From Advenella mimigardefordensis DPN7 (lineage in GTDB: Bacteria; Pseudomonadota; Gammaproteobacteria; Burkholderiales; Burkholderiaceae_B), in assembly GCF_000521505.1 (NCBI RefSeq), contig NZ_CP003915.1:682001-746000 (forward strand): DNA of 64,000 nucleotides, given 5' to 3'. This document shows, one piece after another, positions 37,928 to 54,598 of the stretch. A program made the position numbers and the translations under genes. The notes below the pieces were generated by a model, which saw only the letters and a list, made by a program, of their open reading frames with translations, had not been told where the DNA came from and ran no database searches. The first letter of the stretch is position 1, and every line of letters starts with the position of its first letter.

Positions 37928-38962
37928 TTATTGTCGTTCGCGCAATTCGTAGTCAATCACTACATCGTGCGCATCGCCGGCGCTGTCGGGGCGCAGGCCC
38001 ATCCAGGTGCCCAGACCCAGTGGTGAGGCCTCACCCAGACGAATGCCCTTGATGTCTTCTTTTTTGAGCACGATTTCGGCATCCCAGTTCAGTTCGATGC
38101 CCACGTAATGTCGCAGCCAGTGTGTGAGCTGTTTGGCCTTGCGCGTGCCAGGCATGAATTGGTCAAATTCCGAGCGGGTCAGGGGCCCCAGCGATAATCG
38201 GAATTTATGCTGCGCGTCGCGCACCGAGCTGCCCAGAATCGTATCCTGGCCCAGCCCCATGCTGCCATTAAGACCGAGCTGCTGCGAGGGATGCAGCTGA
38301 ATCCACTGTGGTACGAATTCCTTCAGGCTGACGTTGATATTGAAGAACGTTTTCAGTATCTGGATAATGCCTTCCGGATTGCGCGTCTGGCGCACCAGAT
38401 GGCCGGCAAAGAAATACTTGGCGTGATCCATGATGGAGTCACGATGTTTGAGTGATTCCTGCCCCTGATTAATCAGACTGGCAACATGGCGACTGAAATT
38501 TTCTTCAGGGCGATCCAGACTGACCGTGCTTTGCGCATCGGCCCAGGCCCGATAGAAGAGCGCAATCAGGCGATGATGAAAAATATCGGCAAAGGCCGAG
38601 AGCGTATGGTCCCGATGATGCACGATTCGTTCGCGCACATATTCTGTTAAATGCAGGGGGAGCGGGCCGTTGGGACCGAACAGGCCATAGCTCAGAATGG
38701 AGACCACGGGCGGACCATCTTTATCACGATCGACATCGCAGATGGTGGACGGCGCGAACGCCATGGAGGGTTCCTGGCGCAGTCGCACCGGTTCGCGTGA
38801 GGGCAGCGAATCGCGGCCCAGCGGTTTGCGTGTGCCGCTGCGCGCATCCAGCCAGCGCAACACATGATACAGACCATAACGATAGGGGTCTGCTTCAAGC
38901 TTTTGCCAGAAGTCTGGCGGCAGCGTATGTGTTGGGGTCACAGGAGCCGAAGGAGTATCCAT
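37928..38962 (-). CDS. tssG: Type VI secretion baseplate protein TssG
   Basis: Baseplate wedge protein of 344 aa of the TssG/ImpH/VasB family. Seen: YRYGLYHVLRWLDARSGTRK near the start, RLRQEPSMAFAPSTI, and the typical LSYGLFGPNGPLPLHLTEYV near residue 90. LGQDTILGSSVRDAQHKFRL marks the later half. TssG normally sits next to tssF and tssE; here it stands alone on the minus strand, divergent from clpV. ATG 38962 has no clear ribosome site. The length fits the family, so the gene appears intact. Confidence 0.9.
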   Translation of the reverse strand: MDTPSAPVTPTHTLPPDFWQKLEADPYRYGLYHVLRWLDARSGTRKPLGRDSLPSREPVRLRQEPSMAFAPSTICDVDRDKDGPPVVSILSYGLFGPNGPLPLHLTEYVRERIVHHRDHTLSAFADIFHHRLIALFYRAWADAQSTVSLDRPEENFSRHVASLINQGQESLKHRDSIMDHAKYFFAGHLVRQTRNPEGIIQILKTFFNINVSLKEFVPQWIQLHPSQQLGLNGSMGLGQDTILGSSVRDAQHKFRLSLGPLTRSEFDQFMPGTRKAKQLTHWLRHYVGIELNWDAEIVLKKEDIKGIRLGEASPLGLGTWMGLRPDSAGDAHDVVIDYELRERQ

Positions 38963-39325
38963 GCGAGGGTGGGGCCAGTTAAAAGGTGTGCAGTTAAAAG
39001 GTGTGTACAGACAGCCTGATGAAATGATATGGCGTTTGCAATCAGTGTACCTGAAAGCGAAAGATCTTGTGAATAGTGACCGCGCTCTATGGCGCTGATA
39101 ATATCAGACAGGGAAATAGGGCCGAGCCTGCACCAACACGAATATCGCCTCCGGTGGCGACGAACGCCTAGATATCACCGCTGCAGCCTGCTTACATTTA
39201 GCAAAACTTTAGGGTTCGAAAACCTTCGCGGATACACGTAACATACAGGTCATTATTCACAGGCAGGTCATATTTTTAGGCTACGCTTTTCTATTCACAA
39301 ATGACAGCAAGCAAAACAAACAACT
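38963..39325. promoter_or_regulatory. Divergent region between tssG and clpV
   Basis: A gap of 363 bases that must drive tssG leftwards and clpV rightwards. It begins with a perfect tandem duplication of CAGTTAAAAGGTGTG at 38976-38990 and 38991-39005. No sigma-54 box or remnant of tssE/tssF reading frame is visible. Confidence 0.5.
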
Positions 39326-41953
39326 ATGTCTGAAATCAATCGCAGTGATCTTTTTGGAAAACTTGACACCCTGCTGTACCGCTCGCTGGAAGGCGCCACG
39401 GCATTTTGTAAACTTCGCGGAAACCCGCATGTAGAGCTGGTTCACTGGCTGCATCAGATCATGCACGAGCATGACAGCGATCTGCAGAAAATCATTCGCT
39501 ATTTCGAACTCAATACCGATCAGCTGGAGCGTGGCATTGTTGCGACGCTGGACGAATTGCCGCGTGGTGCATCGTCGGTCTCCGATCTGTCAGAGCATCT
39601 GGACAATGCAACCGAACGTGCCTGGGTATATGGTTCGCTCAAGTATGGCGAAGCGCGGATCCGTAGTGCGCATCTGATTCTGGGGATTCTCAAGACGCAT
39701 TCGCTGCGCAATGTGCTTTACGGTATTTCATCTGAATTTAAAAAAATCACGCCGGATGTGCTGGCTGATAATCTGCCTGCCATCGTCAAAGATTCTGTTG
39801 AGCAGCAGGACAGTGCTGCTTTGTCTGAGGGGGGCGCCGCGGCGCCTGCGACAGGCCCCGGCGGCAAGTCTGCCTTAGCGCAGTATGCGGTCGACATGAC
39901 GGCCCGGGCGCGCAACAATGAAATTGATCCGGTGTCTGGCCGTGACGAAGAAATCCGCCAGATTGTTGATATTCTGATGCGGCGTCGCCAGAACAATCCC
40001 TTGCTGACCGGTGAGGCCGGTGTAGGTAAAACGGCAGTGGTGGAAGGGCTGGCGATACGGCTGGCCAGCGGCGACGTGCCGCCTTCGCTGCGCGAGGTAT
40101 CACTGTATTTGCTGGATATCGGGCTATTGTCTGCGGGCGCGAGCATGAAAGGTGAGTTTGAATCACGCCTGCGCCAGGTGATTGATGAAGTGCAGGCCAG
40201 TGAAAAACCGATAGTGCTGTTTATCGATGAGATTCATACCCTGATCGGCGCTGGCGGGGCAGCCGGTACGGGTGATGCCGCCAACCTGCTCAAACCCGCG
40301 CTGGCCCGTGGCCAGTTGCGCACCATTGGTGCCACGACCTGGTCGGAATACAAGAAGTACATCGAAAAGGACCCCGCGCTCACACGCCGTTTTCAGGTGG
40401 TGCAGGTGCATGAGCCGGCTGAAGCCCGTGCGCTGATTATGTTGCGCGGTCTGGCTGGCAGGCTGGAGTCGCATCATCAGGTGCTCTTGCTGGACGAGGC
40501 GATCGATGCCGCCGTGCGGCTGTCGCATCGATATATTCCGGCGCGCCAGTTGCCCGACAAGGCGGTCGCCTTGCTGGATACGGCCTGCGCCCGCGTGGCG
40601 GTCAGTCAGCATGCGCAACCGCCGGCTGTAGAGGATTGCCGGCGGCGGATTGAGCATCTGCAGATCGAACGCGATATTGCGCAGCGCGAATGGCAGGTGG
40701 GCGTTGGCAGCGAGGCACGCATTGCCACGATTGATAGCGATCTGGAAGCAGCACGTGAGCAGTTGGGTCAGTTGGAAGAAAACTGGCGGATCGAGCAGGA
40801 GCTGGCCGCCAGAATGTTTGAATTGCGGCAGGTGTTGCGTAATGAGGATACCGACGAGCAATTGCGTAGCGAAAGCCTGGCTGAACTGCGGCAGGTGCAG
40901 GCGCAACTGGAGGAGCAGCAGGGCGAGGCACCGCTGATTTTCCCATCGGTGGACGCCAATGCCGTTGCGGCCGTCGTGGCCGACTGGACTGGCATTCCGG
41001 TCGGGCGTATGGTCAAGGATGAGGCCAGTTCGGTATTACAGTTGTCCGATTCGCTGGAAAAACGCGTGATTGGGCAGCGTGACGGCCTGGATGCGATCAC
41101 CCGCCGTATTCAGACGTCGCGCGCTCGCCTCACGGATCCGAATAAACCGGTAGGGGTGTTTCTGCTATGTGGCCCCAGCGGTGTGGGTAAAACCGAGACG
41201 GCGCTGGCCCTGGCTGAAACGCTTTACGGCGGCGAGCAGAATCTGATCTCCATTAATATGAGTGAGTTTCAGGAAGCACACACTGTTTCTACGCTTAAAG
41301 GTGCACCTCCGGGCTATGTTGGCTATGGCGAAGGCGGTGTGCTGACCGAAGCCGTGCGGCGACGTCCCTATAGTGTCGTGCTGCTTGATGAGGTAGAGAA
41401 GGCGCACGCCGACGTCCACGAGATTTTCTTTCAGGTCTTCGATAAAGGCTGGATGGAGGACGGGGAAGGGCGGTATATCGACTTTAAAAATACGGTGATT
41501 ATTCTTACCTCCAATGTGGGTACGGACCGTATTGTGGATTTGTGCAAGGATCCGGACCTGATGCCTGATGCAGAAGGCCTGGCCGGCGCCTTGCGTGATC
41601 CATTACTGGGCGTGTTTCCTGCGGCCCTGTTGGGGCGACTGGTGGTGGTGCCGTATGTGCCGCTATCGGACCAGATGCTGGGCAGTATCGTACGTCTGCA
41701 ACTGGATCGCATCAGGGTACGCCTGCAGCAAAATCACAATATTGATTTTGACGTCACTGATGCTGCGGTTGCGCAGATCGTCGGGCGCTGTACCGAAGTG
41801 GAATCCGGCGGACGGATGGTGGATGCGATTTTGACCAATACGGTCCTGCCCAAAGTAAGTCAGGAAATTCTGCAGAGCACCATCGAAGGCCGCAGTCTGA
41901 CGCGGGTGTCTCTGGATGCGCAGGACGGCGAATTTGTCTATCAATACAGCTGA
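39326..41953 (+). CDS. tssH: Type VI secretion AAA+ ATPase ClpV (TssH)
   Basis: Cytosolic double-ring ATPase of 875 aa that disassembles the contracted sheath. It has a ClpN-type domain (about residues 1-165), a first AAA+ domain with GEAGVGKTAVVEG and LFIDEIHTLIGAGG, and a second with GPSGVGKTETALAL and VVLLDEVEKAHADV. A middle coiled-coil region rich in Glu, Gln and Arg lies near 430-530. Length and order match ClpV rather than ClpB. No sheath gene (tssB, tssC) is in the window, so its substrate must be encoded elsewhere. Confidence 0.92.
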   Translation: MSEINRSDLFGKLDTLLYRSLEGATAFCKLRGNPHVELVHWLHQIMHEHDSDLQKIIRYFELNTDQLERGIVATLDELPRGASSVSDLSEHLDNATERAWVYGSLKYGEARIRSAHLILGILKTHSLRNVLYGISSEFKKITPDVLADNLPAIVKDSVEQQDSAALSEGGAAAPATGPGGKSALAQYAVDMTARARNNEIDPVSGRDEEIRQIVDILMRRRQNNPLLTGEAGVGKTAVVEGLAIRLASGDVPPSLREVSLYLLDIGLLSAGASMKGEFESRLRQVIDEVQASEKPIVLFIDEIHTLIGAGGAAGTGDAANLLKPALARGQLRTIGATTWSEYKKYIEKDPALTRRFQVVQVHEPAEARALIMLRGLAGRLESHHQVLLLDEAIDAAVRLSHRYIPARQLPDKAVALLDTACARVAVSQHAQPPAVEDCRRRIEHLQIERDIAQREWQVGVGSEARIATIDSDLEAAREQLGQLEENWRIEQELAARMFELRQVLRNEDTDEQLRSESLAELRQVQAQLEEQQGEAPLIFPSVDANAVAAVVADWTGIPVGRMVKDEASSVLQLSDSLEKRVIGQRDGLDAITRRIQTSRARLTDPNKPVGVFLLCGPSGVGKTETALALAETLYGGEQNLISINMSEFQEAHTVSTLKGAPPGYVGYGEGGVLTEAVRRRPYSVVLLDEVEKAHADVHEIFFQVFDKGWMEDGEGRYIDFKNTVIILTSNVGTDRIVDLCKDPDLMPDAEGLAGALRDPLLGVFPAALLGRLVVVPYVPLSDQMLGSIVRLQLDRIRVRLQQNHNIDFDVTDAAVAQIVGRCTEVESGGRMVDAILTNTVLPKVSQEILQSTIEGRSLTRVSLDAQDGEFVYQYS

Positions 41954-41988
41954 AGCACGCGGGCCGTTATTCTGATATTCGAAAAATG

Positions 41989-42022
41989 CCCCAAAGGTTG
42001 GATTGATGTCCAACTATTGGGG
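41989..42022. terminator. Nested inverted repeat between clpV and the FHA gene
   Basis: CCCCAA pairs with TTGGGG, and inside it TTGGA pairs with TCCAA around a six-base loop, with three-base internal loops. It lies 36 bases after the clpV stop and before the convergent FHA-gene stop. There is no T-run, so this is a possible bidirectional terminator only. Confidence 0.45.
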
Positions 42023-42134
42023 TGCGGTTCCCAGGCGGGCATTTCTTTTGACGGGTAGAGGCCAGGCAGGCCACGTCAGATACCACCATTGTCGAGGGGG
42101 CGCTTCATCGCGTGTCGTATGGTTACCGGACGCC

Positions 42135-43247
42135 TTATTTTTTTTCCGGATATTTGTCTTTATATCCGGCATGCACCGCGCGGTGCAGCGTATCAAGTAT
42201 GTTGTCCTGCTTGTGGCTGTCCAGCGCAGTGTCTTTGTTCAGCGTAGTCGGACTATCGTCACTGAAAATGGTGTAGCGATCTTTGTCTGTGCCATCGGAA
42301 GGCAAGGCATCTAGCGGGTCACCGTCTATCGATGGATGGCGCATGCCTTCCGGCCTGAGCAGTTCTACCGGATTATGATGATTGCGATTGGTGGCCGATT
42401 CCATGTCAAATGGGTGGCGCTCATCGGGTGTAGAGCCGCCCACGGGTAGTACGCCCGGGCCGCTGAGCAGATCCTTGAAAATATCGTCGGGATCTTCTTC
42501 CGGAACGGGTGCGGGGGGCTCAGGTGGCGGGTTGTCGCTGGCATCGGCAGGAGGCGCAGCCATTGCATTGTCCGGTAGTGCGCGCGATACTGCCTGGCTG
42601 TCACCCAACGGAGCAACCGTGGTGTTGGCCACAGGCGCTGGAGGCGGCATCCGGTTAATGGGTGTGCCAAGCGGGTGTTCTTCAGGATAGGGATCCGGTT
42701 GCCCGGTGCTGGCGGTTTGTTCTGCCGGTGCCTTATAAGCCGGATGCCAGGTTGGCAGGGCTTCGTCATTGCCGGGGGCGGTCATCGGTGTAGCGGCAAA
42801 GGCGCTTGTTGCGACGGGGGTGCCCGCCGCTACGGTCTTGCCGGAGAATGCTGCCGTGTCATACGGGGTTGCACTCAGTTCTTTGTCGTTCAGAGCGGCC
42901 GGCGTGGCAGCCGGTGCGGCCGACGCTGTGGCAGCGGCAGACGGCTCGTTAACGATAATCAGATAATCACCCACGGTTATTCGGTCGCCGCAGCTGACGC
43001 TGACTTCCTGAGACAGGCCAAGTGGTGTGTCGTTGACAGCAACGTGGCTCATGCTGCTCATATTGAGCAAGGTGCCCGTGTTGCCTGTGTCCTGCATGCG
43101 GACGATTGCCTGCAGGGTGCTCAGGTCGCCCGAGGAATCGGGCAGATTCAGGTCGTTCTGTTCGCCACGGCCAATTGTGCCGCCGGGCGGCTGCAACTGA
43201 CAGGTAAACGTGGTAGCGTTGTGCAGATGTTGTACGGTCAGTTTCAT
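42135..43247 (-). CDS. FHA-domain protein of the type VI secretion locus
   Basis: Protein of 370 aa with an N-terminal forkhead-associated domain (about residues 1-100): GTIGRGEQNDLNLPD, TLQAIVRMQD and VAVNDTPLG match the phosphothreonine-binding core. The rest, about 270 residues, is rich in Ala, Pro, Asp and Glu and looks disordered. In P. aeruginosa Fha1 is phosphorylated by PpkA and activates secretion. No active kinase is encoded here; the only kinase-like protein nearby is the pseudokinase at 51923-54598. It lacks the conserved C-terminal domain of TagH, so Fha-like is the safe name. It follows the lipoprotein gene by 58 bases. Confidence 0.82.
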   Translation of the reverse strand: MKLTVQHLHNATTFTCQLQPPGGTIGRGEQNDLNLPDSSGDLSTLQAIVRMQDTGNTGTLLNMSSMSHVAVNDTPLGLSQEVSVSCGDRITVGDYLIIVNEPSAAATASAAPAATPAALNDKELSATPYDTAAFSGKTVAAGTPVATSAFAATPMTAPGNDEALPTWHPAYKAPAEQTASTGQPDPYPEEHPLGTPINRMPPPAPVANTTVAPLGDSQAVSRALPDNAMAAPPADASDNPPPEPPAPVPEEDPDDIFKDLLSGPGVLPVGGSTPDERHPFDMESATNRNHHNPVELLRPEGMRHPSIDGDPLDALPSDGTDKDRYTIFSDDSPTTLNKDTALDSHKQDNILDTLHRAVHAGYKDKYPEKK

Positions 43248-43305
43248 GATGGATTCTGCTCCTTGAGCGGAGGCGATGGTAACGCCTCCGTCGTGTCGCG
43301 CTCGC

Positions 43306-43797
43306 CTACTTTGTCAGAGGACGGATAGGCGTAATGCTGCCGCTGGTCTGCGCGCCAGAGCTGGCTGTGTTGCCGCTGGCGGGCTGATGTTCTGCCTGTA
43401 CGCGTTCAAATACAGGGCCCCAGGATGGGTGGGATTTCTCAGCGGGAAGCAATGTGAAATTGGGATTCAGTGTCAGAATTTGTTCAAATGTGCTGGCACA
43501 ACTGCGCTTGGCCTCAGTCAGGCACTCGCTGAATGCCTTGTACTTGAGGGCTGTCGTGTGCAGGGGAACCGAGCCGCTGCTCAGCGCCGGCGTGCTGTTT
43601 ACCTGCGTAATGACTGCGTCGTACTGTCCTGCCATGAAACTTTCACGTATCGGGCGGATCTGTATTTCTTCAGATGAAGAAAGTGCTGTTGAATCGGAAC
43701 CGCCCCACAGGGAACATGCCGACATAAATACACCGGCGGCCAGTACGCCGGACAACCGAAACACACGTAAAGCATTCATTTTTTTCAATTGAGACAT
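43306..43797 (-). CDS. T6SS-associated lipoprotein (TssQ-like)
   Basis: Lipoprotein of 163 aa. A signal peptide runs to a lipobox around GVFMSACS, with the acylated Cys near residue 28. The mature part has a TPR-like helical segment (AGQYDAVITQV, then TTALKYKAFSECLTEAKRSC and FEQILTLNPNFTLLPAE) and a Ser/Gly-rich tail. Similar proteins in Burkholderia and Bordetella T6SS loci are called TssQ; I recall this without being able to search. It shares a direction with the FHA gene and is divergent from tssJ. ATG 43797 or 43779 could be the start. Confidence 0.65.
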   Translation of the reverse strand: MSQLKKMNALRVFRLSGVLAAGVFMSACSLWGGSDSTALSSSEEIQIRPIRESFMAGQYDAVITQVNSTPALSSGSVPLHTTALKYKAFSECLTEAKRSCASTFEQILTLNPNFTLLPAEKSHPSWGPVFERVQAEHQPASGNTASSGAQTSGSITPIRPLTK

Positions 43798-44316
43798 GTT
43801 TGTGTAATAGAAATATTAAATAATACTGTTTGCCATAGCCTGTTAATGCAAATGAAATATGCCCGCTTATTTATGGCAAATGACATATGCAGGTCAGTCA
43901 ATGTGCTGCCATTTCTGCGAAGGAGGAACCCGTCTTTGGAGTGTGTACGGCAGCAGGACTAAATACTAAATCATATTAAAACCTGTAGATGACAATAACA
44001 TGTTAATCCGGCACCGTCGTGCTTAAGAAACGTAAATTGTGTAACACATACGTAACTTTGGAAAAATACTGTTTAATTTAACTACATCTTCGTCAATTTC
44101 AGTAAGAGTATAGGCTTTGCGCTTAATGTTTTGGTCTGTCACAAACACAGTTGAAATTGGCGATTTTGCCGGGTATCTTTTGGCGCGGGCAGACGGAACC
44201 AGGCAGGTGCAAAGCCCCAGGCAGATGCCCGCACTGCGGCCCTGGCTGCAGGGCCATCTTAAGGTCGGCCGGCGCTGGCCAGCTACTTGCACGCAATTTG
44301 AACGAGGATATGCTAA
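43798..44316. promoter_or_regulatory. Divergent AT-rich promoter region of the T6SS genes
   Basis: About 520 bases between the lipoprotein-FHA pair and tssJ. The left part is strongly AT-rich (43800-44100), as promoters of secretion islands often are. A possible sigma-54 site lies at the right end. Small ORFs here are unconvincing. Confidence 0.5.
44276..44291 (+). promoter_or_regulatory. Possible sigma-54 promoter of tssJKLM
   Basis: TGGCCA-GCTAC-TTGCA has the GG and GC pairs exactly ten bases apart, as sigma-54 requires, and lies 25 bases before the tssJ start codon. The expected transcript would begin almost at the GAGGA ribosome site (44304-44308), an unusually short leader. No sigma-54 activator such as VasH is present in this block. 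Confidence 0.4.
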
Positions 44317-44844
44317 ATGACATTTATTCATAACAAGATCATGAAACTGGGTGCGGTCAGCCTGATTGCAGCTGGTGCGCTGGCCGGATGTGCATCAACC
44401 GAATCGAAAATGGCCGTTCCCTATGTCGTAGAGTTAAAGGCAGATAATCAGGTCAACCCTAATGCGTCGGGCAAGGCTTCCCCCGTCAAGGTCACTGTCT
44501 ACGAACTGAAGTCCACCAATGCCTTTGATACGGCAGACTATTTTGCCCTGATGAAGGATCCGCGCGCGGTGCTGGGCGATCAGATGCTGGAGGTCAATTC
44601 CCGTATCCTCAAGCCAGGCAGCACAGAGCAAATCAAGGCATCGGGCAGCACCCAGGCCAAGGCACTGGGCATTGTCGCTTCGTACCGTGATCTGAACAAC
44701 AGCCAGTGGCGTCTGGTGGTAGACCTGCCGGAAGCCAGAACGACCAATTTCTATAAATTCTGGCAGTTCTCTCCTGACGAGAAGCGTATTCGCATCGATG
44801 TGCAGAGAGCTGCTGTCAACGTCAACAAAACAGAACCAAAATAG
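44317..44844 (+). CDS. tssJ: Type VI secretion outer-membrane lipoprotein TssJ
   Basis: Outer-membrane lipoprotein of 175 aa that anchors the TssLM membrane complex. A signal peptide with lipobox GALAGC (Cys near residue 25) is followed by VYELKSTNAFDTADYFALMK, a typical TssJ beta-sandwich segment, and VASYRDLNNSQWRLVVDLPE. ATG 44317 is chosen because GAGGA lies eight bases upstream; ATG 44341 would shorten the signal. It is the first of the genes tssJ-tssK-tssL-tssM-tagF on the plus strand. Confidence 0.9.
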   Translation: MTFIHNKIMKLGAVSLIAAGALAGCASTESKMAVPYVVELKADNQVNPNASGKASPVKVTVYELKSTNAFDTADYFALMKDPRAVLGDQMLEVNSRILKPGSTEQIKASGSTQAKALGIVASYRDLNNSQWRLVVDLPEARTTNFYKFWQFSPDEKRIRIDVQRAAVNVNKTEPK

Positions 44845-44859
44845 ATCGCAGATTGTTTT

Positions 44860-46203
44860 ATGAGCATAAAAGATAAAGTAGTCTGGTCCGAGGGCATGTT
44901 TCTCCGTCCTCATCATTTTCAGCAGTTCGAACGATTTCTGGAACACAATCTGAGGGTACGCATTGAAAGTATCACGAGTGTGTTCTGGGGGTTTCAGGAC
45001 CTGGATATTGACATTGATGCCCTGGCGCTGGGCAAGATTGCGCTGAAAAAAGCGACTGGCCTGTTTCCCGACGGCACCCCGTTCAGCTTTGATGCAGAGT
45101 CCGCGCCATTTGCGCTTGAAGTGCCGGCTGGCACGCTGGACAAGCGCGTGTATCTGGCGATACCGCGCGTACGCGAAGGTGCTGAAGACGTCGTGTTTGA
45201 AGAGACGCCCGACTCCCTGGCGCGTTATAGCGTGATTGAAGACGAAGTGGTCGATACCTGTGAGGTGTCCCTTGGAACGGCGGTGGTGCAGGTTGGACGC
45301 TTGCGTTTCCGGCTGATGCTTGAGTCTGATTTCGGCGACGAGTGGATCGGCATGCCGCTGGCCTGGATCACCGAACGCAGCGCTGACAATAAGGTGGTGC
45401 TTGACTTCAATTACATTGCACCGGTGTTATCGAGCAGTGTGAGTTTTGCGCTTACGAGTTTTATCCGCGAATTGTTCGGCTTGCTGAATGCCCGCAGCGA
45501 ATTGCTGGCGGCACGGCTGAATCAGCCTGGGCGCGGCGGCGTTGCCGAAGTTTCGGAATTCCTGATACTGGAAACCATCAACCGCTATCGTGGTGCCATC
45601 TGGCACATGGTCACGCTGGGCAATCTGCATCCGGAACGCATTTTTCACGACTTCCTGATGCTGGCCAGCGATCTGGCCACCTTTACCGGAACCGGTAAGC
45701 GGATGGAGACGTTCCCCGATTATGTGCATGATAATTTACGCCTGAGCTTTGAGCCGCTGATGCAGGTACTGCGTCGGGCGCTGACGACGATTCTGGAAGA
45801 GCAGGCGGTTCGCATACCGCTGCACGACAAAGGGCAGGGGCTGCGGGTGGGGCAGATTACCGATCCGCACCTGCTGCAGTCTGCCGATTTTATTATCGCT
45901 GTCCATGCCGATATGCCAGCCGAGCTCACACGAACCCGCTTCCCGGCACAGGTCAAATTGGGGCCGGTGGAACGCATCCGCGACCTGGTGCACCTGCAAT
46001 TGCCGGGCGTTTCACTCAAGCCTGTCACCAATGTACCGCGTCAGTTGCCGTACAGTGCCGGGCATATTTATTTTTCTCTGGAAAAAACCGGCGACATGTG
46101 GAAGCAGCTGGAACGGACCGGCGCGCTGGCACTGCATCTGGCCGGGGACTTTCCGGGGCTTACGCTTGAGTTCTGGGCGGTCAGAGAGGATCGGGACAGA
46201 TAA
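44860..46203 (+). CDS. tssK: Type VI secretion baseplate protein TssK
   Basis: Protein of 447 aa that links the baseplate to the membrane complex. The N-terminus VVWSEGMFLRPHHFQQFERF is the hallmark of TssK/ImpJ/VasE. VYLAIPRVREGAEDV and VPRQLPYSAGHIYFSLEKTG near the C-terminus fit the three-domain family. It starts 15 bases after tssJ and ends two bases before tssL. Confidence 0.93.
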   Translation: MSIKDKVVWSEGMFLRPHHFQQFERFLEHNLRVRIESITSVFWGFQDLDIDIDALALGKIALKKATGLFPDGTPFSFDAESAPFALEVPAGTLDKRVYLAIPRVREGAEDVVFEETPDSLARYSVIEDEVVDTCEVSLGTAVVQVGRLRFRLMLESDFGDEWIGMPLAWITERSADNKVVLDFNYIAPVLSSSVSFALTSFIRELFGLLNARSELLAARLNQPGRGGVAEVSEFLILETINRYRGAIWHMVTLGNLHPERIFHDFLMLASDLATFTGTGKRMETFPDYVHDNLRLSFEPLMQVLRRALTTILEEQAVRIPLHDKGQGLRVGQITDPHLLQSADFIIAVHADMPAELTRTRFPAQVKLGPVERIRDLVHLQLPGVSLKPVTNVPRQLPYSAGHIYFSLEKTGDMWKQLERTGALALHLAGDFPGLTLEFWAVREDRDR

Positions 46204-46205
46204 AC

Positions 46206-47519
46206 ATGGCAGAAAATTTCGCGGGGACGCCGATCGGTCCCTGGGCAAACTCCACCGCAGAGCCCGATACGGGCAAGTTGCGGCCCGACGATTATGTCAT
46301 TAGTGGTTCCAATACACTGGTTGCTGCAGCCAATCCGCTGCTGGTGCTGATTCCGCAAATCCGTAATACCCGCTCGCATCCTTCGCCAGCGCAGTTGCGC
46401 GAACATCTGGTGGACGAAGTGCGGCAGTTCGAATTGCGCGCGCAGCATGCAGGGATCCGCAACGAGACGATTCTTGGCGCGCGTTACTGCTTGTGTACGG
46501 CACTGGATGAAGCGGCCGCGCTGACCCCCTGGGGTGGCGGCGGGATGTGGTCGGCCAACAGTCTGCTGGTGACCTTCCATAACGAGACCTGGGGCGGCGA
46601 GAAATTCTTTCAGCTGCTGGCCAAGCTGTCGCAGAACCCGGCACAGCACATCGACTTGCTGGAACTGCTTTACTATTGCCTGGTACTGGGCTTTGAGGGT
46701 CGCTATCGGGTCGTGGACAATGGGCGCTCGCAACTGGAAACATTGCGCCAGCGCCTGCTGCTGATCTTGCGCAACGCACGTGGCCAGTATGCCGCTGCGT
46801 TGTCTCCGCATTGGCAGGATGCCCCGATTCTGAATAAGGTACGGCGTTTGCCGATTCCCTTGTGGGTCTTTGCCGTGCTGGCTGCAGCACTGGGTTTCCT
46901 GTCGTTTCTCGGCCTGCAGTGGAGCCTGGGGGACCGTTCAGACAAATTGTTTGCAGATGTCATTAAAATCAAACCGCCCACGGTGCAGATCAGTGCGCCG
47001 CAAGTGACGCGTGAGCCGGTCAAAACTGACAGGATTGCACCGTTTCTGGCACCGGAAATTCGCGAGAATTTGCTTACGGTTCGTGATGAAGCCGATCGCA
47101 GTGTGATTGTGCTGCGTGGCGACGGTCTGTTCGAATCGGGTGCGGATGGCATCCGCTCGCAATACCTGCCGGTGCTCTCGCGCGTGGCCGATGCGCTCAA
47201 CGCGGTGCAGGGCAACATTCTGGTTACCGGCTACAGCGACAATGTACCGATCAAAACCATTAAATATCCCTCGAACTGGGAGTTGTCACAGGCCCGTGCC
47301 GATGCCGTCAAAAAGCTGCTGGATGAGCGGCTGACCGATAAATTACGCGTTCGTGCCGAAGGCCGCGGCGAAGCCGATCCGGTCGCGGCGAACGATACGC
47401 CTGAAAACCGGGCGCGCAATCGGCGCGTGGAGATTACCTTGCTCGTTTCACCTGTTGCCCCGGGCTCGTCGGCCCCGGCTGATCCGTCTGCCATGCCTGC
47501 GCGGGGAGCGAACCGATGA
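46206..47519 (+). CDS. tssL: Type VI secretion membrane protein TssL with OmpA domain
   Basis: Inner-membrane protein of 437 aa. The DotU-type cytoplasmic domain covers about residues 30-215, with AARYCLCTALDEAAAL-like sequence and FQLLAKLSQNPAQHIDLLEL. One membrane helix is at LWVFAVLAAALGFLSFLGL. A periplasmic OmpA-type peptidoglycan-binding domain follows, with ILVTGYSDNVPIKT and NRARNRRVEITLLV. This extended TssL holds the complex to the cell wall. Its stop overlaps the tssM start (ATGA), so translation is coupled. Confidence 0.93.
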   Translation: MAENFAGTPIGPWANSTAEPDTGKLRPDDYVISGSNTLVAAANPLLVLIPQIRNTRSHPSPAQLREHLVDEVRQFELRAQHAGIRNETILGARYCLCTALDEAAALTPWGGGGMWSANSLLVTFHNETWGGEKFFQLLAKLSQNPAQHIDLLELLYYCLVLGFEGRYRVVDNGRSQLETLRQRLLLILRNARGQYAAALSPHWQDAPILNKVRRLPIPLWVFAVLAAALGFLSFLGLQWSLGDRSDKLFADVIKIKPPTVQISAPQVTREPVKTDRIAPFLAPEIRENLLTVRDEADRSVIVLRGDGLFESGADGIRSQYLPVLSRVADALNAVQGNILVTGYSDNVPIKTIKYPSNWELSQARADAVKKLLDERLTDKLRVRAEGRGEADPVAANDTPENRARNRRVEITLLVSPVAPGSSAPADPSAMPARGANR

Positions 47520-50500
47520 TCAGTCGCTTCTTCAGTTTTCTTTTCAGTCGTGGTTTGTGGGTCTTTCTCGGACTGCTGGTTATTTCGTTCCTGATCTGGA
47601 CAGTAGGACCGAGTCTGTCGGTCAATAACTGGTACTTGCTGGATTCCCAGGAGGTGCGGTTGTGGGTGATTGGCACGATCTGGGCGATCTGGCTGCTGCG
47701 CATTATCTGGCGCAAATGGCGCGAAGGACGCCTGAATGCGCAGTTGCTGGGACAATTGCGCAAGCCCAAACCCGAAGCTGAACTCAAAGAAATGCCCGAA
47801 GCCGAGCGGGCAGAGATCAAGGTCCTGTCTGAGCGCTTCGACGAGGCCATCACCCTGTTGCGTAATTCGCGTTTTGAAGCGGGTGAAAACAAATCGCCAC
47901 TGGCGCGGTTTTCCAAGCAATATTTGTATCAACTGCCCTGGTATGTGTTCATTGGTGCACCCGGTTCAGGAAAAACCACTGCGCTGGTCAATTCCGGCCT
48001 GAATTTTCCGCTGGCAGACCGCTTCGGTAAAGTGGCGCTCAAAGGGATCGGCGGTACCCGCAATTGTGATTGGTGGTTTACCGATGAAGCGGTGTTGCTG
48101 GATACAGCCGGCCGCTATACCACGCATGAAAGCGACCCGACCGGCGATGAGCAGGAGTGGAAAGGGTTTCTGAATCTGCTGACCAAGTACCGCGGCCGTC
48201 AGCCGATTAACGGCGTGATGCTGACGGTCAGCGTTGCAGACCTGCTGAGCGCAACCGACACGGAACGGGTGGCGCATGCTGCCGTGTTGCGGCGTCGCCT
48301 GCAGGAATTGCGCGAAGAGCTGGGGATTCAGTTCCCGGTGTATGTGCTGGTGACCAAAACCGACTTGCTGTCCGGTTTCGAAGAGTATTTTGCGACCTTC
48401 AGTCGTCAGGAACTGGATCAGATCTGGGGCTTTACGATACCGTATGAGCAGGGGCAGAAGCCGGACTTCAAGCTGATGAACGCCTACGACGCCGAATATG
48501 AGCTGTTGCAGAAGCGGCTGTACGAGGCCCTGCCGGATGTGCTGGCGGCGGAACCGGATGAAACCCGACGCGCGCTGGCTTATTTGCTGCCGCAGCAGTT
48601 TGCCGGCCTGCGCCAGGTATTGGGGCATTTTCTGAGCGATGTGTTTTCCAGCTCCAAGTTTGAATCGGTAGTGATTCCGCGGGGGATTTATTTCACCAGT
48701 GGTACGCAGGGTGGCCAGACATTCGATCGGGTAGCAGGACAGCTCAAGAAATATTTGAAGATTGAAGGCATCCGGGATCCAGGCTCGGGCATTCCGCTGG
48801 AGTCGGGCAAAAGCTACTTTCTGCATAATCTGCTCAAGGATGTGGTGTTTCCCGAGTCCATGCTGGCGGGCCTGAATCTTAAATGGGAACGCCGCTATCG
48901 CACGATTCAGTGGGGCGGCTATGTGCTGCTGACGGCTGTACTGGCGATTTGTCTGCTGCTGTGGCTCAATAGCTATCGGAATAATCGAAACTATCTTGCC
49001 GATGTGAATGACAAGCTGCCGGGCTACACTCAGCTCAGTCGCGACATCAAGATTACCGAATCGGGTGATGTGCTGGGTCTGGTGCCGTTTATGAACGCGA
49101 CCACTGATTTGCCTAATGGCAAGGATTTCCCGGCAGACAGCCCTCCTGTGTGGAATACGTTCGGCCTGTATCAGGGTAGTAAAATCGCTGCGGCGGCTAA
49201 CAGTATTTACGATGAAACGATCAAGCAGGTGCTGTTGCCGCAAGTATCGCGACGCATTGAAAATGCGCTGGAGAACGCACCGCCTGACGATCTTGAATAC
49301 TCGTACGAGGCCTTGCGTGCCTATCTCATGATGTACGATACCGAGCATTACGATCCGTCGTTCCTGCAGTCCTGGGTGCTGTCCGATATGCAGAAAATTC
49401 TGCCGGCCGGCTACACCACAGAGGATTACGATATGCTCAAGCTGCACATCAACCGCCTCTTCAATAATGGGGTCGTGTCCTCGCCGTTTCCCAAAAATGA
49501 CGCGCTGATCGAACGGGTACGCGGCAGTCTGGATCGCCACGCGCTGGCCGAAAGGGTCTATAGCCGCATGTTGCGCCTGTTGTCCGGCCAGAGTCTGACT
49601 CAGAGCACGTTTATCACACTGGGCGGTGCGGAAGCCTCTACGGTTTTTTTTCGCAAAAGCGGTAAACCCCTTAACGAGGGGATCCCCGGGCTGTATACCT
49701 ACAACGGTTATTGGAATGTTTTCAGCAAGAATGTAGAGAACGTGGCCACACAATTGCGTGAAGATGACACCTGGGTGTTGAACGTCAAGGCAGGCAGCTT
49801 TGCCGATGGCAGCAATCGCAAGCTGTTCGAAGATGTAAAAAAAAGATACTTTGACGACTATGTGCAGTATTGGGATAGTTATCTGGCCGATGTGTCGGTG
49901 CGTAAACCCCAGACCATGCTGCAGAGTATAGAAATCGCGCGTAGCCTGTCCTCGTCCAATTCGCCGCTGGTCAAGTTTGTCAAAGGGGTTGCCCTGGAGA
50001 CCACGCTGCTGCGTGAAGATGAAGAGAACCAGCGATCGCTGATCGACCGGGCACGGGAGCGGGTAACCGGTTCGACCCAGTCGCTCGAATCGATGTTTGG
50101 CGCGACCGGGATCGACAATCCGATACGGCGCGATGCGACGCAAGAGAAACTGGAAAAAATAGTTGATAACCATTTTGTACAGTACCGCGAACTGGCGCGC
50201 AGTGCGGGACAGGGCGTGGCACCACCGATAGAGGGTACGACCGGGCTGCTCAACGAGCTGTATACCTATCTGACGGCCGCCGATACGGCCTTGCGCAGTC
50301 AGAGTCCGCTGCCCCCGGCAGATGTGCTGACCAAGCTGCAGGCCGAAGCGGGGCGAGTGCCTCCGGCGGTGGGCGGCGTGCTGACCGATTTATCGGTTAC
50401 GGCATCACGGCAGGTGGCTGGCGTTCGTCAGGAAAAAGTGGGTGAAGATGTGAATGCAGTGCTGGGCAATTTCTGTCGTCGTTCAATTGCCGGCCGGTAT

Positions 50501-51127
50501 CCGTTCGGCAACTCCTCCAAGGATGTTGCTCCCAATGACTTTGCCCGCTTTTTTGGCCCTCAGCAGATGATGGATCAGTTTTTCCGCGAGAACCTGGCCA
50601 GCCTGGTTGATATGAGTGGCGGCAGTTGGCGATTCAAGCCGGGCATTGATGGCACCAAGGGCGGCGTCGCCGGCTTTCTGGATTCCTTTGAAAAAGCGGC
50701 GGTCATTCGCGATGTCTATTTTGCTGCCGGAAAACTGGAGCCGTCCTTCAAGGTCGCTGTGCGTCCCATCGATATGGACCCTGAAATCACACAAATGGTG
50801 ATGGAAGTGGATGGCCAGACGCTCACCTATGCGCATGGCCCTCAGGTAGGCGTGACCATGGAATGGCCTGGCAAGCAGGGCAGTAACCAGGTCAGTATCA
50901 GTCTGCAGCCGCAAATCGGCACGTCCGGCATTTCCGCCTCAGGCCCGTGGGCACTGAATCGTCTGCTGGACCGGGCCAGTCAGCGGCAGGGGCGTTCACC
51001 GGAAGTGACCGTCGCCACCTTTAATATCGGCGGTCGCCGGGTGACCCTGGAGTTTGCCGCCTATTCGGCCAAAAGCCCATTTCGCCTGAGCGATATGCGC
51101 AGTTTCAGATGTCCGGGGAAGGGCTAG
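47516..51127 (+). CDS. tssM: Type VI secretion membrane protein TssM (IcmF)
   Basis: Large inner-membrane protein of 1203 aa. Two N-terminal helices (around residues 10-35 and 42-65) precede a cytoplasmic GTPase-like domain with the Walker A motif GAPGSGKTTALVNSG and DTAGRYTTHE. A third helix near residue 470 (YVLLTAVLAICLLLWLNSY) leads to a long periplasmic part that contacts TssJ, ending in VEFAA-like beta segments and SFRCPGK. Walker residues are intact. It overlaps tssL at the start and probably tagF at the end. Confidence 0.95.
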   Translation: MISRFFSFLFSRGLWVFLGLLVISFLIWTVGPSLSVNNWYLLDSQEVRLWVIGTIWAIWLLRIIWRKWREGRLNAQLLGQLRKPKPEAELKEMPEAERAEIKVLSERFDEAITLLRNSRFEAGENKSPLARFSKQYLYQLPWYVFIGAPGSGKTTALVNSGLNFPLADRFGKVALKGIGGTRNCDWWFTDEAVLLDTAGRYTTHESDPTGDEQEWKGFLNLLTKYRGRQPINGVMLTVSVADLLSATDTERVAHAAVLRRRLQELREELGIQFPVYVLVTKTDLLSGFEEYFATFSRQELDQIWGFTIPYEQGQKPDFKLMNAYDAEYELLQKRLYEALPDVLAAEPDETRRALAYLLPQQFAGLRQVLGHFLSDVFSSSKFESVVIPRGIYFTSGTQGGQTFDRVAGQLKKYLKIEGIRDPGSGIPLESGKSYFLHNLLKDVVFPESMLAGLNLKWERRYRTIQWGGYVLLTAVLAICLLLWLNSYRNNRNYLADVNDKLPGYTQLSRDIKITESGDVLGLVPFMNATTDLPNGKDFPADSPPVWNTFGLYQGSKIAAAANSIYDETIKQVLLPQVSRRIENALENAPPDDLEYSYEALRAYLMMYDTEHYDPSFLQSWVLSDMQKILPAGYTTEDYDMLKLHINRLFNNGVVSSPFPKNDALIERVRGSLDRHALAERVYSRMLRLLSGQSLTQSTFITLGGAEASTVFFRKSGKPLNEGIPGLYTYNGYWNVFSKNVENVATQLREDDTWVLNVKAGSFADGSNRKLFEDVKKRYFDDYVQYWDSYLADVSVRKPQTMLQSIEIARSLSSSNSPLVKFVKGVALETTLLREDEENQRSLIDRARERVTGSTQSLESMFGATGIDNPIRRDATQEKLEKIVDNHFVQYRELARSAGQGVAPPIEGTTGLLNELYTYLTAADTALRSQSPLPPADVLTKLQAEAGRVPPAVGGVLTDLSVTASRQVAGVRQEKVGEDVNAVLGNFCRRSIAGRYPFGNSSKDVAPNDFARFFGPQQMMDQFFRENLASLVDMSGGSWRFKPGIDGTKGGVAGFLDSFEKAAVIRDVYFAAGKLEPSFKVAVRPIDMDPEITQMVMEVDGQTLTYAHGPQVGVTMEWPGKQGSNQVSISLQPQIGTSGISASGPWALNRLLDRASQRQGRSPEVTVATFNIGGRRVTLEFAAYSAKSPFRLSDMRSFRCPGKG

Positions 51128-51129
51128 AC

Positions 51130-51873
51130 ATGGGCGGAATCAGTATTGATCAACTTTCGGATTCGCTGGGCTGGTATGGCAAAATGCCGTCCAGTGGCGA
51201 TTTTGTCCATCGGCGACTTGACCAGGGCCTGATCGGCTGGTGGCATCGCTGGCTCAGTTCCGGTCTGATTGCCATGCATGAGTCGGTGTTGCTGTCGGCC
51301 GAGCAGGAATACATGAGTGCACCCATCTGGAATTTTCTGATTCCTGCATCGCTGGGGTGCGATATGGTGCAGATGGGATGCCTGGCGCCCAGTCGCGATC
51401 GGGTCGGGCGCGTGTATCCATTGCTGGCCGTTCTGTATGTACCGGCAGTGCAGTATGAAGCGCAGCAGGTAGCGGGTTCGGGGCGGTTTTACGAACATCT
51501 GGGGCGCAGCCTGCTGGCAGCGGTCGGGCATGGCTGCTCGGCGACGCAGTTTGAGCAGAATATCCAGGGCGCGCGCGGTACTTTGACACAAATGCTGACA
51601 CGTGCGTCCACCCAAATGACCGAAGATGACGGCAGCAGTGATATTCTGGATATTCTGAATGGCGGCCATGAAACGGCGCCGATTGAAAAGCTTGACCAGA
51701 ACGACTCGCGCTGGCCGGAACTGGCGTTGTGCTTCAATAGCGACGCACATAACAGTTATTGGTGGACCAATCAGGCCAATGGCGCCGCGCAAAAGTCTCT
51801 GGTGCATGGCGGGGCGCTGAATATTCCGCTGTTCAATTCGCTGTTTATCACGCACACCAATTTCAGGCTGTAG
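51130..51873 (+). CDS. tagF: Type VI secretion protein TagF
   Basis: Protein of 247 aa of the TagF/ImpM family, a post-translational repressor of T6SS in P. aeruginosa. The start segment GWYGKMPSSGDFVHRRLDQ and the following GWWHRWLSSGL are diagnostic. IWNFLIPASLGCDMVQMGCL continues the fold. ATG 51130 with GGGAAGGG upstream is preferred to ATG 51109, which overlaps tssM. In many species TagF is fused or paired with the phosphatase PppA; no phosphatase is here, but a kinase-like protein follows. Confidence 0.88.
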   Translation: MGGISIDQLSDSLGWYGKMPSSGDFVHRRLDQGLIGWWHRWLSSGLIAMHESVLLSAEQEYMSAPIWNFLIPASLGCDMVQMGCLAPSRDRVGRVYPLLAVLYVPAVQYEAQQVAGSGRFYEHLGRSLLAAVGHGCSATQFEQNIQGARGTLTQMLTRASTQMTEDDGSSDILDILNGGHETAPIEKLDQNDSRWPELALCFNSDAHNSYWWTNQANGAAQKSLVHGGALNIPLFNSLFITHTNFRL

Positions 51874-51922
51874 CTATTTACTCATTATTGCATTTGACAA
51901 GCCAGGCATAGGAAACAACATT

Positions 51923-54598
51923 ATGGCGACCTCGTTACAGGATCTTCTACGCAACGTCGACCCCTCATGGCAGCCGCTGGACAAGACGGCCCTTGGCACC
52001 GGATCTGCATCACAGGGCCAGCTGGAAGATCTGGTGCTCGATTTGCTGCCGCAATTGAAGGCACTGCATGCGCAGCAGCGCGCCTATGGTGTCTGGTCCC
52101 TGCAAACCGTATTTCTTGATCCGGTAGGTCGTGCCAAGCTGCTGCCGGGAGTTGGCCAGCCCTTTATGAAGCAGGGGGCGCCTGTTGTGCCCGGCACAGA
52201 GGCATTTGCTGCGATTGAGTTGCAGACAGACGATGTGGCCTGGCGTATCGGCCCCTGGACCGATGTTTACGGTCTGGGTGCCCTGTTACGCGCCATGATT
52301 AGCGGGCAGGAGCCCCAAAGCCCGGTACGCCGTTTCGTTCAGGATACGCAGCAACCGCTGGCCGCCGCCGCGCCTGCAGGCTATTCACGCCAGTTTCTGC
52401 GGACGGTGGATCTGAGTACGGTGCTGCAGTCAGCCTTGCGTTTGCAATCGGTTGATGAATTATCAGTGATGATGGGCTTGTCGGCTGCCAGCGCGAGTGC
52501 ACCTGTGGCACCTGCTGCGTCTGGGGGCATAGCAGCCGCCGGTGCGGTTGCGGGCGGCCTGGCTGCGCAGGGGATATTGAGTCCTGCTGCGGGCGACGAC
52601 CAGCAGGCAGCCGCAGAACAGGCAGCGGCGCGTCAGGCGCAGGAGGCACAACAAGCCCGTGATGCTCAGGTGGCTCAGGACGAGGCCCGGCGTAAAGCGC
52701 AGGAGGAGGCGGAAGCGGCAAGGGCGGAGCAGGCTCGGCAGGCTCAGGCCGATGAGGCGGCACGACAGGAGCAGATCCGTGCAGAACAGGAGCGGGCAGA
52801 ACAGGCCAGAGCAGAGCAGGAACGAGCAGAGCAGGAAGGGCTGGAGCAAGTACGAGCCGAACAGGCCAGGGCAGAACAAGCTAGAGCCGAACAAGCCAAA
52901 GCCGAACAAGTCAAAGCCGAACAAGTCAAAGCCGAACAGGCTAGGGCAGAACAAGCCGAAGCAGAACAGACTCAAAGCCGGCGTGATGCCGCAGCGGCAT
53001 CGACAGATGCGAGCGCGGACGACCAGTCCGTAGACGCGACGGCAGGGACCAGCGGCGCAGCCGGTTTGCCGCCGGATGGCGCCGGTGGCGGACAGCCCGC
53101 CAGCCCGGTACCTCCTGGGGAGGACAAAAAGCGCGCGCCGGTGTTACTCATTGCCGTGGTGCTGGCAGCGATTGCAGCAGGCGCCTATTTCGGTTTTGGC
53201 GGCCAGAAAGAGGGTGAAGCGCCCCCCGTGGCGAGTTCTACGGAGCCGGCAACGCCGCAAGCTTCCGGTACGGCTGCCACGCCAGCGCCAGCAGTGGCCG
53301 ATCAGGCCGCTGGTGAACCCGCACCCGGCGCGGCAGCGTCGCCGTCCGAGGCTTCACCAGCAGCGGAGGGGGCCACGATTGCAGGGGGCGCTGCGCCAGC
53401 GACGACTGGCAATACCGGGAGCGGGTCGGCGTCGAATGAGGCAGAGCCGTCACAGTCTGCTACTACGTCAACCAATGAGCCATCCGGCCAGAATCAGACT
53501 GCCGGCGCTACTGCGTCGGTAACCGATACAACGCAGCCGGCAACGCCATCAGGCGCTACGGAGCCGGCTGCCAGCACCAGCGGTGCACCCGCAACTGCCA
53601 CAACAGAGAACACGACACCTTCGGCAACGGGCGCCAGCCCCATGCCGACCGAGTCGGACAACACGCTAAGCGCTACGGGCGGGGCTGCTGCACAAGCGCC
53701 AGGCACGGCGCAGAGCGCTGCTGTCAACGAGCAGGCCGCTGCCGAGCAGGCGCGGCGTGAGGAGGAAGCGCGACGTATCGAAGAGGCAACCAAGGCAGAA
53801 GAGGCGCGACTGGCTGCAGCGAGCCAGCAAGCGCCAGCGGCGGTGGCGCCAACTGCTAACGATACGGTTGGGGGTACGGCAGCAGGGGCAGCGACGAGTA
53901 CGGCCACAGCGCCGGATGCCGCCGCTCAGGCTGCACCGTCAGGTCGCACCAGCACGTTTGCCCAAGAGAGTGCGCCCGCCACATCGGCTGGTGGTACTGC
54001 GGCAGGCACATCTGCACCGGCTGACGCGGCCACCCCATCTGCCGCAGCAGGCGCTGAAGACGCGCCCGCCAATGCAGCCAATAACACTGAAAACACGACT
54101 GCTACCGCCACCGACAATCAGGTAGCGGGCGGGGCTGCCGGTCTTGCTGGTGCAGCGGCTGCGGGCTCATCCTCCACGACGGGCGCTGCAGCGCCGGCTT
54201 CAGGCGCCAGCGAATCCGTGGAGATGACAGCGGCAGATGCAGCACGTGAAGAAGAAGCGACGCAGGCCCGAGAGCAGGCGGCACTGGAAAAAGCCCGCCA
54301 GGAAGATGCGCGCCTGAAAAGGGAGCGGGAACGCCGGGCTGCTGCCGAGGCACGCGCCGAACGCAACGCGGGCACGACACGCAGTTCTTCAAAAGGTACG
54401 GTTTCATTTGTGATACGGCCATGGGGCAATGTGTTCATCAATGGCCGCTCGCGTGGTGCCAGTCCGCCGTTCCGCAGTCTGCAACTGGCTCCGGGTACTT
54501 ATAATATTATGATTACAAACGGGGATTTACCGCGGTATGTAAGGGTGATTACCGTCAAGGCAGGTGAAAATATCACGGTTGTACATCAATTCCAGTAA
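51923..54598 (+). CDS. Pseudokinase/coiled-coil/transmembrane/PEGA-domain protein of the T6SS locus
   Basis: A protein of 891 aa that I do not recognise as a standard T6SS part. Residues about 1-190 resemble only the C-lobe of a Ser/Thr kinase: LKALHAQQRAYGVWSLQTVF stands where the HRD loop should be, LLPGVG where DFG should be, then GPWTDVYGLGALLRAMISGQ matches the DVYSLG region. The catalytic Asp residues are missing and no N-lobe or ATP loop is present. Residues about 228-355 form a Glu/Gln/Ala/Arg-rich coiled coil with AEQAR-type repeats. A membrane helix follows (about 405-425, LLIAVVLAAIAAGAYFGF). Then comes a very long Ala/Pro/Thr-rich low-complexity linker, a short second charged stretch, and a C-terminal PEGA domain (about 823-891, VFINGRSRGASPP). 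AGGAAA precedes the start, 50 bases after tagF. Confidence 0.75.
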   Translation: MATSLQDLLRNVDPSWQPLDKTALGTGSASQGQLEDLVLDLLPQLKALHAQQRAYGVWSLQTVFLDPVGRAKLLPGVGQPFMKQGAPVVPGTEAFAAIELQTDDVAWRIGPWTDVYGLGALLRAMISGQEPQSPVRRFVQDTQQPLAAAAPAGYSRQFLRTVDLSTVLQSALRLQSVDELSVMMGLSAASASAPVAPAASGGIAAAGAVAGGLAAQGILSPAAGDDQQAAAEQAAARQAQEAQQARDAQVAQDEARRKAQEEAEAARAEQARQAQADEAARQEQIRAEQERAEQARAEQERAEQEGLEQVRAEQARAEQARAEQAKAEQVKAEQVKAEQARAEQAEAEQTQSRRDAAAASTDASADDQSVDATAGTSGAAGLPPDGAGGGQPASPVPPGEDKKRAPVLLIAVVLAAIAAGAYFGFGGQKEGEAPPVASSTEPATPQASGTAATPAPAVADQAAGEPAPGAAASPSEASPAAEGATIAGGAAPATTGNTGSGSASNEAEPSQSATTSTNEPSGQNQTAGATASVTDTTQPATPSGATEPAASTSGAPATATTENTTPSATGASPMPTESDNTLSATGGAAAQAPGTAQSAAVNEQAAAEQARREEEARRIEEATKAEEARLAAASQQAPAAVAPTANDTVGGTAAGAATSTATAPDAAAQAAPSGRTSTFAQESAPATSAGGTAAGTSAPADAATPSAAAGAEDAPANAANNTENTTATATDNQVAGGAAGLAGAAAAGSSSTTGAAAPASGASESVEMTAADAAREEEATQAREQAALEKARQEDARLKRERERRAAAEARAERNAGTTRSSSKGTVSFVIRPWGNVFINGRSRGASPPFRSLQLAPGTYNIMITNGDLPRYVRVITVKAGENITVVHQFQ
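52781..52960 (+). repeat. 15-bp coding repeats for AEQ(A/V)(R/K) units
   Basis: Twelve 15-base units, the clearest being GCCGAACAAGTCAAA repeated exactly at 52901 and 52916. They encode five-residue AEQAR/AEQVK/AEQAK units in the coiled coil of the pseudokinase protein. The near identity of neighbouring units points to recent slippage or unequal crossing over. Confidence 0.85.

Follow-up and report, generated by a model that had tools for sequence, protein, structure and literature searches.

The window, by which we mean the whole 64,000-nucleotide stretch of Advenella mimigardefordensis DPN7 DNA analyzed here, carries part of a type VI secretion system (T6SS) together with a gene for an 891-aa protein (Table 1). 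The genes tssJ, tssK, tssL, tssM and tagF lie upstream of this gene and run in the same direction; its open reading frame starts 49 bp beyond the end of tagF and, as the initial annotation stated, follows that gene directly. The genes for an FHA protein and a TssQ-family lipoprotein are divergent, and clpV and tssG are found further out. The same annotation had noted an FHA protein in a locus free of active kinase or phosphatase, and indeed no PppA-type phosphatase was found nearby. The T6SS core genes of this organism are distributed over two loci, with tssG, H, J, K, L, M, tagF, FHA and tssQ at window positions 37928-54598, and tssA, B, C, hcp, impE, tssE, tssF and a DUF3540 gene ~3.6 Mb away, at ~4385000-4393300. 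The lipoprotein has no Pfam match and belongs to a family encountered mainly where PpkA or its relic ends in a PEGA domain.

Table 1. Features of the T6SS locus and of the 891-aa protein (window positions)
Feature	Position	Strand	Basis
tssG	37928..38962	-	T6SS_TssG
tssH (clpV)	39326..41953	+	TIGR03345
Degenerate TagH/FHA protein, FHA domain only, without T6SS_FHA_C	42135..43247	-	TIGR03354 53.7 bits (cut-off 120.25); Pfam; pocket R..STxQ
TssQ-family T6SS lipoprotein	43306..43797	-	NF038027, 96.9 bits (cut-off 65)
tssJ	44317..44844	+	profile matches
tssK	44860..46203	+	profile matches
tssL, long form with OmpA domain	46206..47519	+	profile matches
tssM	47516..51127	+	TIGR03348, 1200 bits
tagF	51109..51873	+	TagF_N E 4.7e-34; TIGR03373 over cut-off
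PpkA-derived putative pseudokinase, 891 aa	51923..54598	+	translation, match to PpkA, locus comparison
Kinase C-lobe relic, ~residues 28-186	52004..52480	+	keeps E99, D114, R173; without HRD, catalytic Asn, DFG
A/E/Q/R-rich repeat stretch, ~residues 225-350, possible coiled coil	52595..52972	+	read from translation
Single transmembrane helix, residues 407-425, N-terminal side KKR	53141..53197	+	helix scan of relatives
PEGA-like domain, residues 836-887	54428..54583	+	profile matches of the segment and homologous segments

The protein had been described from its letters as the C-lobe of a Ser/Thr kinase with HRD and DFG replaced, followed by a single membrane span and a C-terminal PEGA domain. 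We recovered each of these elements, and found that the catalytic-loop Asn and the entire N-lobe, with its catalytic Lys, are missing as well; at the columns of HRD/Asn and DFG the window protein reads YGVWSLQT and P-G. The C-terminal segment is best called PEGA-like, since it scores 20.3 bits against PF08308 where the Pfam gathering score is 20.8; 25 of 28 homologous PEGA segments match PF08308 at E <= 0.1. Exactly one transmembrane helix, situated between the C-lobe and PEGA, was predicted in 37 of the 40 relatives scanned.

We classified 100 loci, consisting of 20 from relatives of the window genome and the best 80 of at least 309 loci confirmed in named genomes, and found the kinase N-lobe present in 72 and absent in 28. 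The motif table had 94 rows; eight loci in which the anchor motif is missing were excluded (L038, L039, L049, L067, L074, L083, L088 and L100). In these rows, drawn in part from the best 80 of at least 309 loci, the catalytic Asp, Asn and DFG/DLG were kept in all 68 that bear an N-lobe, and the catalytic Lys in 66 of the 68, with the remaining two truncated at contig ends; Asn and DFG were absent from all 26 N-lobe-less rows, 10 of which still carry the letter of the HRD Asp. Among the residues invariant across 53 rows were E99 (APE-like Glu), D114 (the Asp of GPWTDVY) and R173, which we take to be the APE Glu, the helix-F Asp and the Arg partner of the helix-F Asp in kinase anatomy; they are taken as the structural core of the kinase, away from the active site. 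With a kinase fold, lost catalytic motifs and maintenance by selection, the 891-aa protein has the properties of a pseudokinase, and on its sequence we regard it as a catalytically dead, stripped-down kinase descendant. A genome search of the window organism returned no Pkinase match over the cut-off; the sole match, at 29.7 bits and below that cut-off, lies at 1719919-1720119 in a 267-aa frame.

The initial annotation took the relic for a component that replaces PpkA. Comparison with crystallized PpkA pointed elsewhere: residues 94-183 matched it with an E value of 9.5e-18 (next best, 0.26), and the predicted model of the relic was also closest to PpkA, so that the kinase-like lobe was upheld in sequence and fold as a homolog of the PpkA kinase domain and the notion of an independent component was not. 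Furthermore, in Burkholderia, Paraburkholderia and Trinickia loci (drawn in part from the best 80 of at least 309) a gene for an intact kinase-TM-PEGA protein lies directly after tssM-tagF, in the very slot of the window gene. In a C-lobe tree, which covered loci from the same best 80 of at least 309 and has long branches and a fast-evolving C-lobe that call for caution, the 26 N-lobe-less rows fell on one side of a single branch with support 100/100. The named N-lobe-less rows are Alcaligenaceae; L034, L037, L038 and L049 were left out of this tree. L037 and L056 are one and the same genome. The short PEGA tree leaves one clade unresolved and does not reject it (p-AU 0.474). Because of the PpkA match, the intact orthologs in the same slot and the one-branch grouping, we conclude that the protein is PpkA's own degenerate descendant. 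In an ancestor of the family the ATP-binding N-lobe would have disappeared together with the catalytic motifs, leaving in place the C-lobe, the helix that spans the membrane and the periplasmic PEGA domain. The N-lobe losses are nested in one lineage and may represent one event, so the counts and contrasts reported here are not independent of one another.

Comparison with its intact relatives shows what was kept. Like PpkA (PDB 5hnv, 5x1r), the window protein has the homologous C-lobe, the slot after tagF, one transmembrane helix, a periplasmic C-terminal part and an FHA gene in its locus; unlike PpkA, it has no N-lobe and no HRD, Asn or DFG, its locus has no PppA and its FHA partner is degenerate. 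The intact kinase-TM-PEGA proteins compared (L059, L062, L063, L065, L076, L089, L094 and L113) share the tssM-tagF-gene slot, the PEGA end and a TssQ in the genome, but have a complete kinase domain with VAIK/VAVK, HRD, Asn and DFG, and FHAs with the pocket R..SR. As to the earlier claim that no described T6SS component has this architecture, these orthologs after tagF are a precedent for everything except the N-lobe loss.

To map the distribution of the protein, we surveyed an evenly drawn set of 101 genomes from the window's family. The PEGA end was found in 33 of them, at 41 loci in all; the gene is thus present in the T6SS loci of relatives, as the initial annotation required. The N-lobe is absent from all 41 (40 called from the start of the profile match, the window locus from its translation), the kinase match beginning no earlier than position 141 of the 330-position model; in the three intact kinases of the family it begins at positions 21-32 of 330. 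TagF occurs in 32 of the 101 genomes and is accompanied by the PEGA protein in 29, within ~3 kb in 26 of these and apart in the other 3. The remaining three TagF genomes form one genus (g59), in which an intact PpkA-type kinase stands beside TagF. In four family genomes the PEGA protein occurs in the absence of TagF; many members adjoin tssQ instead of tagF. The genus g59 (L282-L290; G067, G098, G121) has a T6SS that is more distantly related, and its PpkA is intact and lacks PEGA. We also observed a second N-lobe-less type (L042, L044, L045, L057, L058, L060, L061, L069 and L080), for which the fetched locus has no tagF match and does have a tssQ match, sometimes divergent next door; some genomes carry both types.

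Selection was assessed by dN/dS from five Advenella sequences, in which some pairs are near synonymous saturation and the values are accordingly rough. PEGA was the most constrained segment (0.043), followed by the relic (0.076) and the transmembrane region (0.129), with the linkers fast and gappy (0.25-0.27). These values indicate that the relic is preserved by purifying selection within the genus. Reading frames are also maintained open across 14 genera of the family sample.

We then considered the partners of the kinase. A strict PP2C motif pattern matched 4 of the 72 kinase loci, and these four seeded an HMM. With this HMM, PP2C was found in none of 29 N-lobe-less loci versus 35 of 72 kinase loci, and, among loci with an FHA ORF, in 0 of 15 versus 29 of 30 (loci including the best 80 of at least 309; fetched loci end ~8-10 kb either side, so that a gene missing from a locus may still be present elsewhere in the genome). 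The frame-broken L034 is counted among both the 15 and the 29. For the window organism, the PP2C family search gave no PP2C_2 match genome-wide and no PP2C in the locus. Since PP2C_2 lies beside FHA in only 4 of 7 Burkholderia-type genomes with intact kinases (in two there is none, and in one it is on another contig only), phosphatase loss is not strictly tied to kinase loss.

The FHA pocket changed in parallel. In the same loci, again including the best 80 of at least 309, the pocket R..SR was found in 0 of 15 FHAs beside N-lobe-less proteins versus 27 of 30 beside kinases; the remaining three have R..AR. Whole genomes added eight Achromobacter/Bordetella FHAs, all eight with Cys in place of the pocket Ser, and Ser-Arg was kept in 9 of 9 kinase-bearing genomes; this survey had a TIGR03354 match in 18 of 19 genomes, and the pocket was read for 8 of 10 N-lobe-less genomes (L080 gave no match and the L057 match was missed by the FHA model). 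In A. tumefaciens, according to the available text of PMC3953482, the corresponding Arg and Ser bind phosphothreonine, and mutation of both abolished secretion while single mutations reduced it. The window FHA reads R..ST, with Arg and Ser kept and the next Arg lost; pocket loss in the window's genus thus appears to be partial. The T6SS_FHA_C domain was absent from all four FHAs tested from N-lobe-less loci versus present in five of five associated with kinases, and profile comparison of the FHA C-terminal parts of 20 N-lobe-less-associated and 45 kinase-associated ORFs detected no homology (probability 0.03%). The C-terminal ends in the N-lobe-less lineage have a conserved stretch of their own, with an HPFD-type start and DPL and TPS-L-type motifs. 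As a control within the family, FHA was found in two of the three g59 genomes, with the pocket R..SRxH and PP2C beside it. Judged from these alignments and profiles, the FHA partner has decayed along with the kinase. Of 14 genomes carrying the PEGA form, 13 have TssQ, versus 3 of 13 that do not carry it.

Elsewhere PpkA is needed against TagF repression, which it overcomes through phosphorylation of Fha or TssL. Here the kinase, the PppA-type phosphatase, the FHA C-domain and, variably, the FHA pocket are gone or changed, and phosphorylation therefore cannot overcome TagF in this way. Because this circuit has mostly decayed and yet the dead kinase is preserved by selection, its mode of action is probably binding and not phosphorylation. 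Work on other organisms makes such a role plausible. The available text of PMC6082577 reports that Serratia marcescens can regain Hcp secretion without PpkA once TagF is lost, Fha still being essential, and that a periplasmic signal enters PpkA via RtkS; the portions of PMC5995506 at hand describe binding of TagF to Fha in A. tumefaciens, and restoration of secretion when ppkA and tagF-pppA are removed. According to the text available from PMC9600267, YukC, a membrane pseudokinase of the T7SSb, binds FHA domains that do not conserve the phosphate-binding residues; its authors deduce a contact without phosphorylation, and they describe E. coli as having no typical Ser/Thr kinase of this type.

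From the bypass of PpkA by TagF loss, the TagF-Fha binding and the YukC-FHA precedent, we propose, with somewhat more belief than doubt, that the pseudokinase relays an envelope signal to FHA or TagF by binding, without phosphorylation. Specifically, the PEGA domain, which we infer to be periplasmic, would read the state of the envelope, with the TssQ-family lipoprotein as its likely partner there; the signal would pass through the transmembrane helix to the C-lobe relic, which would engage the FHA protein (or TagF) purely through protein contact; this binding would set whether TagF holds the membrane complex off, a direction of control that we likewise infer. A non-catalytic scaffold standing in for the PpkA/PppA switch had been suggested in the initial annotation, and much of this remains the best reading, with a non-catalytic relic in the kinase slot, FHA present and PppA absent; the implied origin outside PpkA does not stand.

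Other readings of the same data were weighed. The protein might be chiefly a structural part of the envelope, its helix and PEGA domain bracing the membrane complex or touching peptidoglycan or TssQ, and the relic a cytoplasmic cap without signaling function. The strong constraint on PEGA, the co-occurrence of TssQ with it and the copies located away from tagF are consistent with this; against it stand the low dN/dS of the relic, its 53/53 conservation of E99, D114 and R173, and the way the protein tracks TagF across the family genomes. We think this account rather unlikely, if worth keeping in mind. Less likely again is that the relic binds and titrates TagF rather than FHA. Their joint presence in 29 of 32 TagF genomes, 26 times within ~3 kb, would fit, yet four genomes have the protein without TagF, three have the two apart, and it is the FHA partner that changes along with the kinase. 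That the protein is still an unusual enzyme, or is a substrate of some other kinase that FHA then recognizes in the classical manner, seems to us very improbable: the window FHA does keep its pocket Arg and Ser, the HRD Asp letter persists in the 10 of 26 N-lobe-less rows (best 80 of at least 309 loci included), and a further Pkinase match over the cut-off, whose product could act there, occurs in 11 of the 33 family genomes that carry the PEGA protein, but the N-lobe, DFG and catalytic Asn are all missing, the window genome has no such match, and the pocket Ser is gone from most partner FHAs. Decay of the gene as a passenger pseudogene of the operon would explain the lost N-lobe and motifs and the fast, gappy linkers, and is hardly credible given that relic and PEGA are under strong purifying selection in the genus, that frames are open across 14 genera, and that the broken copies amount to L034 and a single PEGA match interrupted by an in-frame TAG (G123). 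In L034 (G007) frame breaks also affect tssK, tssM and putA of the one assembly, probably through sequencing or assembly error.

PpkA, PEGA, FHA and TagF are each already known individually. In the open-license literature (subscription papers fell outside its scope) we found no T6SS pseudokinase named, and no paper joining type VI secretion and the PEGA domain with tagF, kinase, truncation or Bordetella; a family-wide, selected N-lobe-less PpkA with coupled FHA decay was likewise not found described there. For PpkA in Achromobacter, the one paper that came up there concerns Acinetobacter, judging by title and abstract. Bacterial pseudokinase families with kinase-like domains and degraded motifs are treated in PMC12599244, in whose main text, as available, the words PpkA and PEGA never occur, so that the present family is not named there by those words. 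A further parallel is YukC/EssB of the T7SSb, likewise a membrane pseudokinase of a secretion system, and YukC binds FHAs without phosphate-binding residues (available text of PMC9600267). It differs in belonging to another secretion system and phylum, in lacking PEGA and in the more complete pseudokinase domain of EssB, and the likeness traced here is that of the kinase fold. EssB was outside the 50 entries listed for the model comparison, a listing that is no test of absence.

Post-translational control of the T6SS is explained by kinase, phosphatase, FHA and TagF in the available parts of PMC6082577 and PMC5995506, which also leave Fha with an unexplained phosphorylation-independent role and PpkA dispensable once TagF is gone. 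The lineage studied here is a natural experiment on this point, in which evolution has removed the chemistry and retained the scaffold, TagF and FHA, and in it the role of PpkA besides phosphorylation becomes directly testable. More tentatively, and with doubt outweighing confidence, we speculate that the family may have a phosphorylation-free T6SS switch, in which kinase activity, phosphatase, FHA phosphothreonine reading and the FHA C-domain were dismantled and the switch rebuilt as a stoichiometric relay between pseudokinase and FHA/TagF, driven by a PEGA-TssQ sensor and convergent with the T7SSb pseudokinase-FHA pair. The comparison suggests that the pairing of a pseudokinase with an FHA that does not read phosphate arose separately in two secretion systems.
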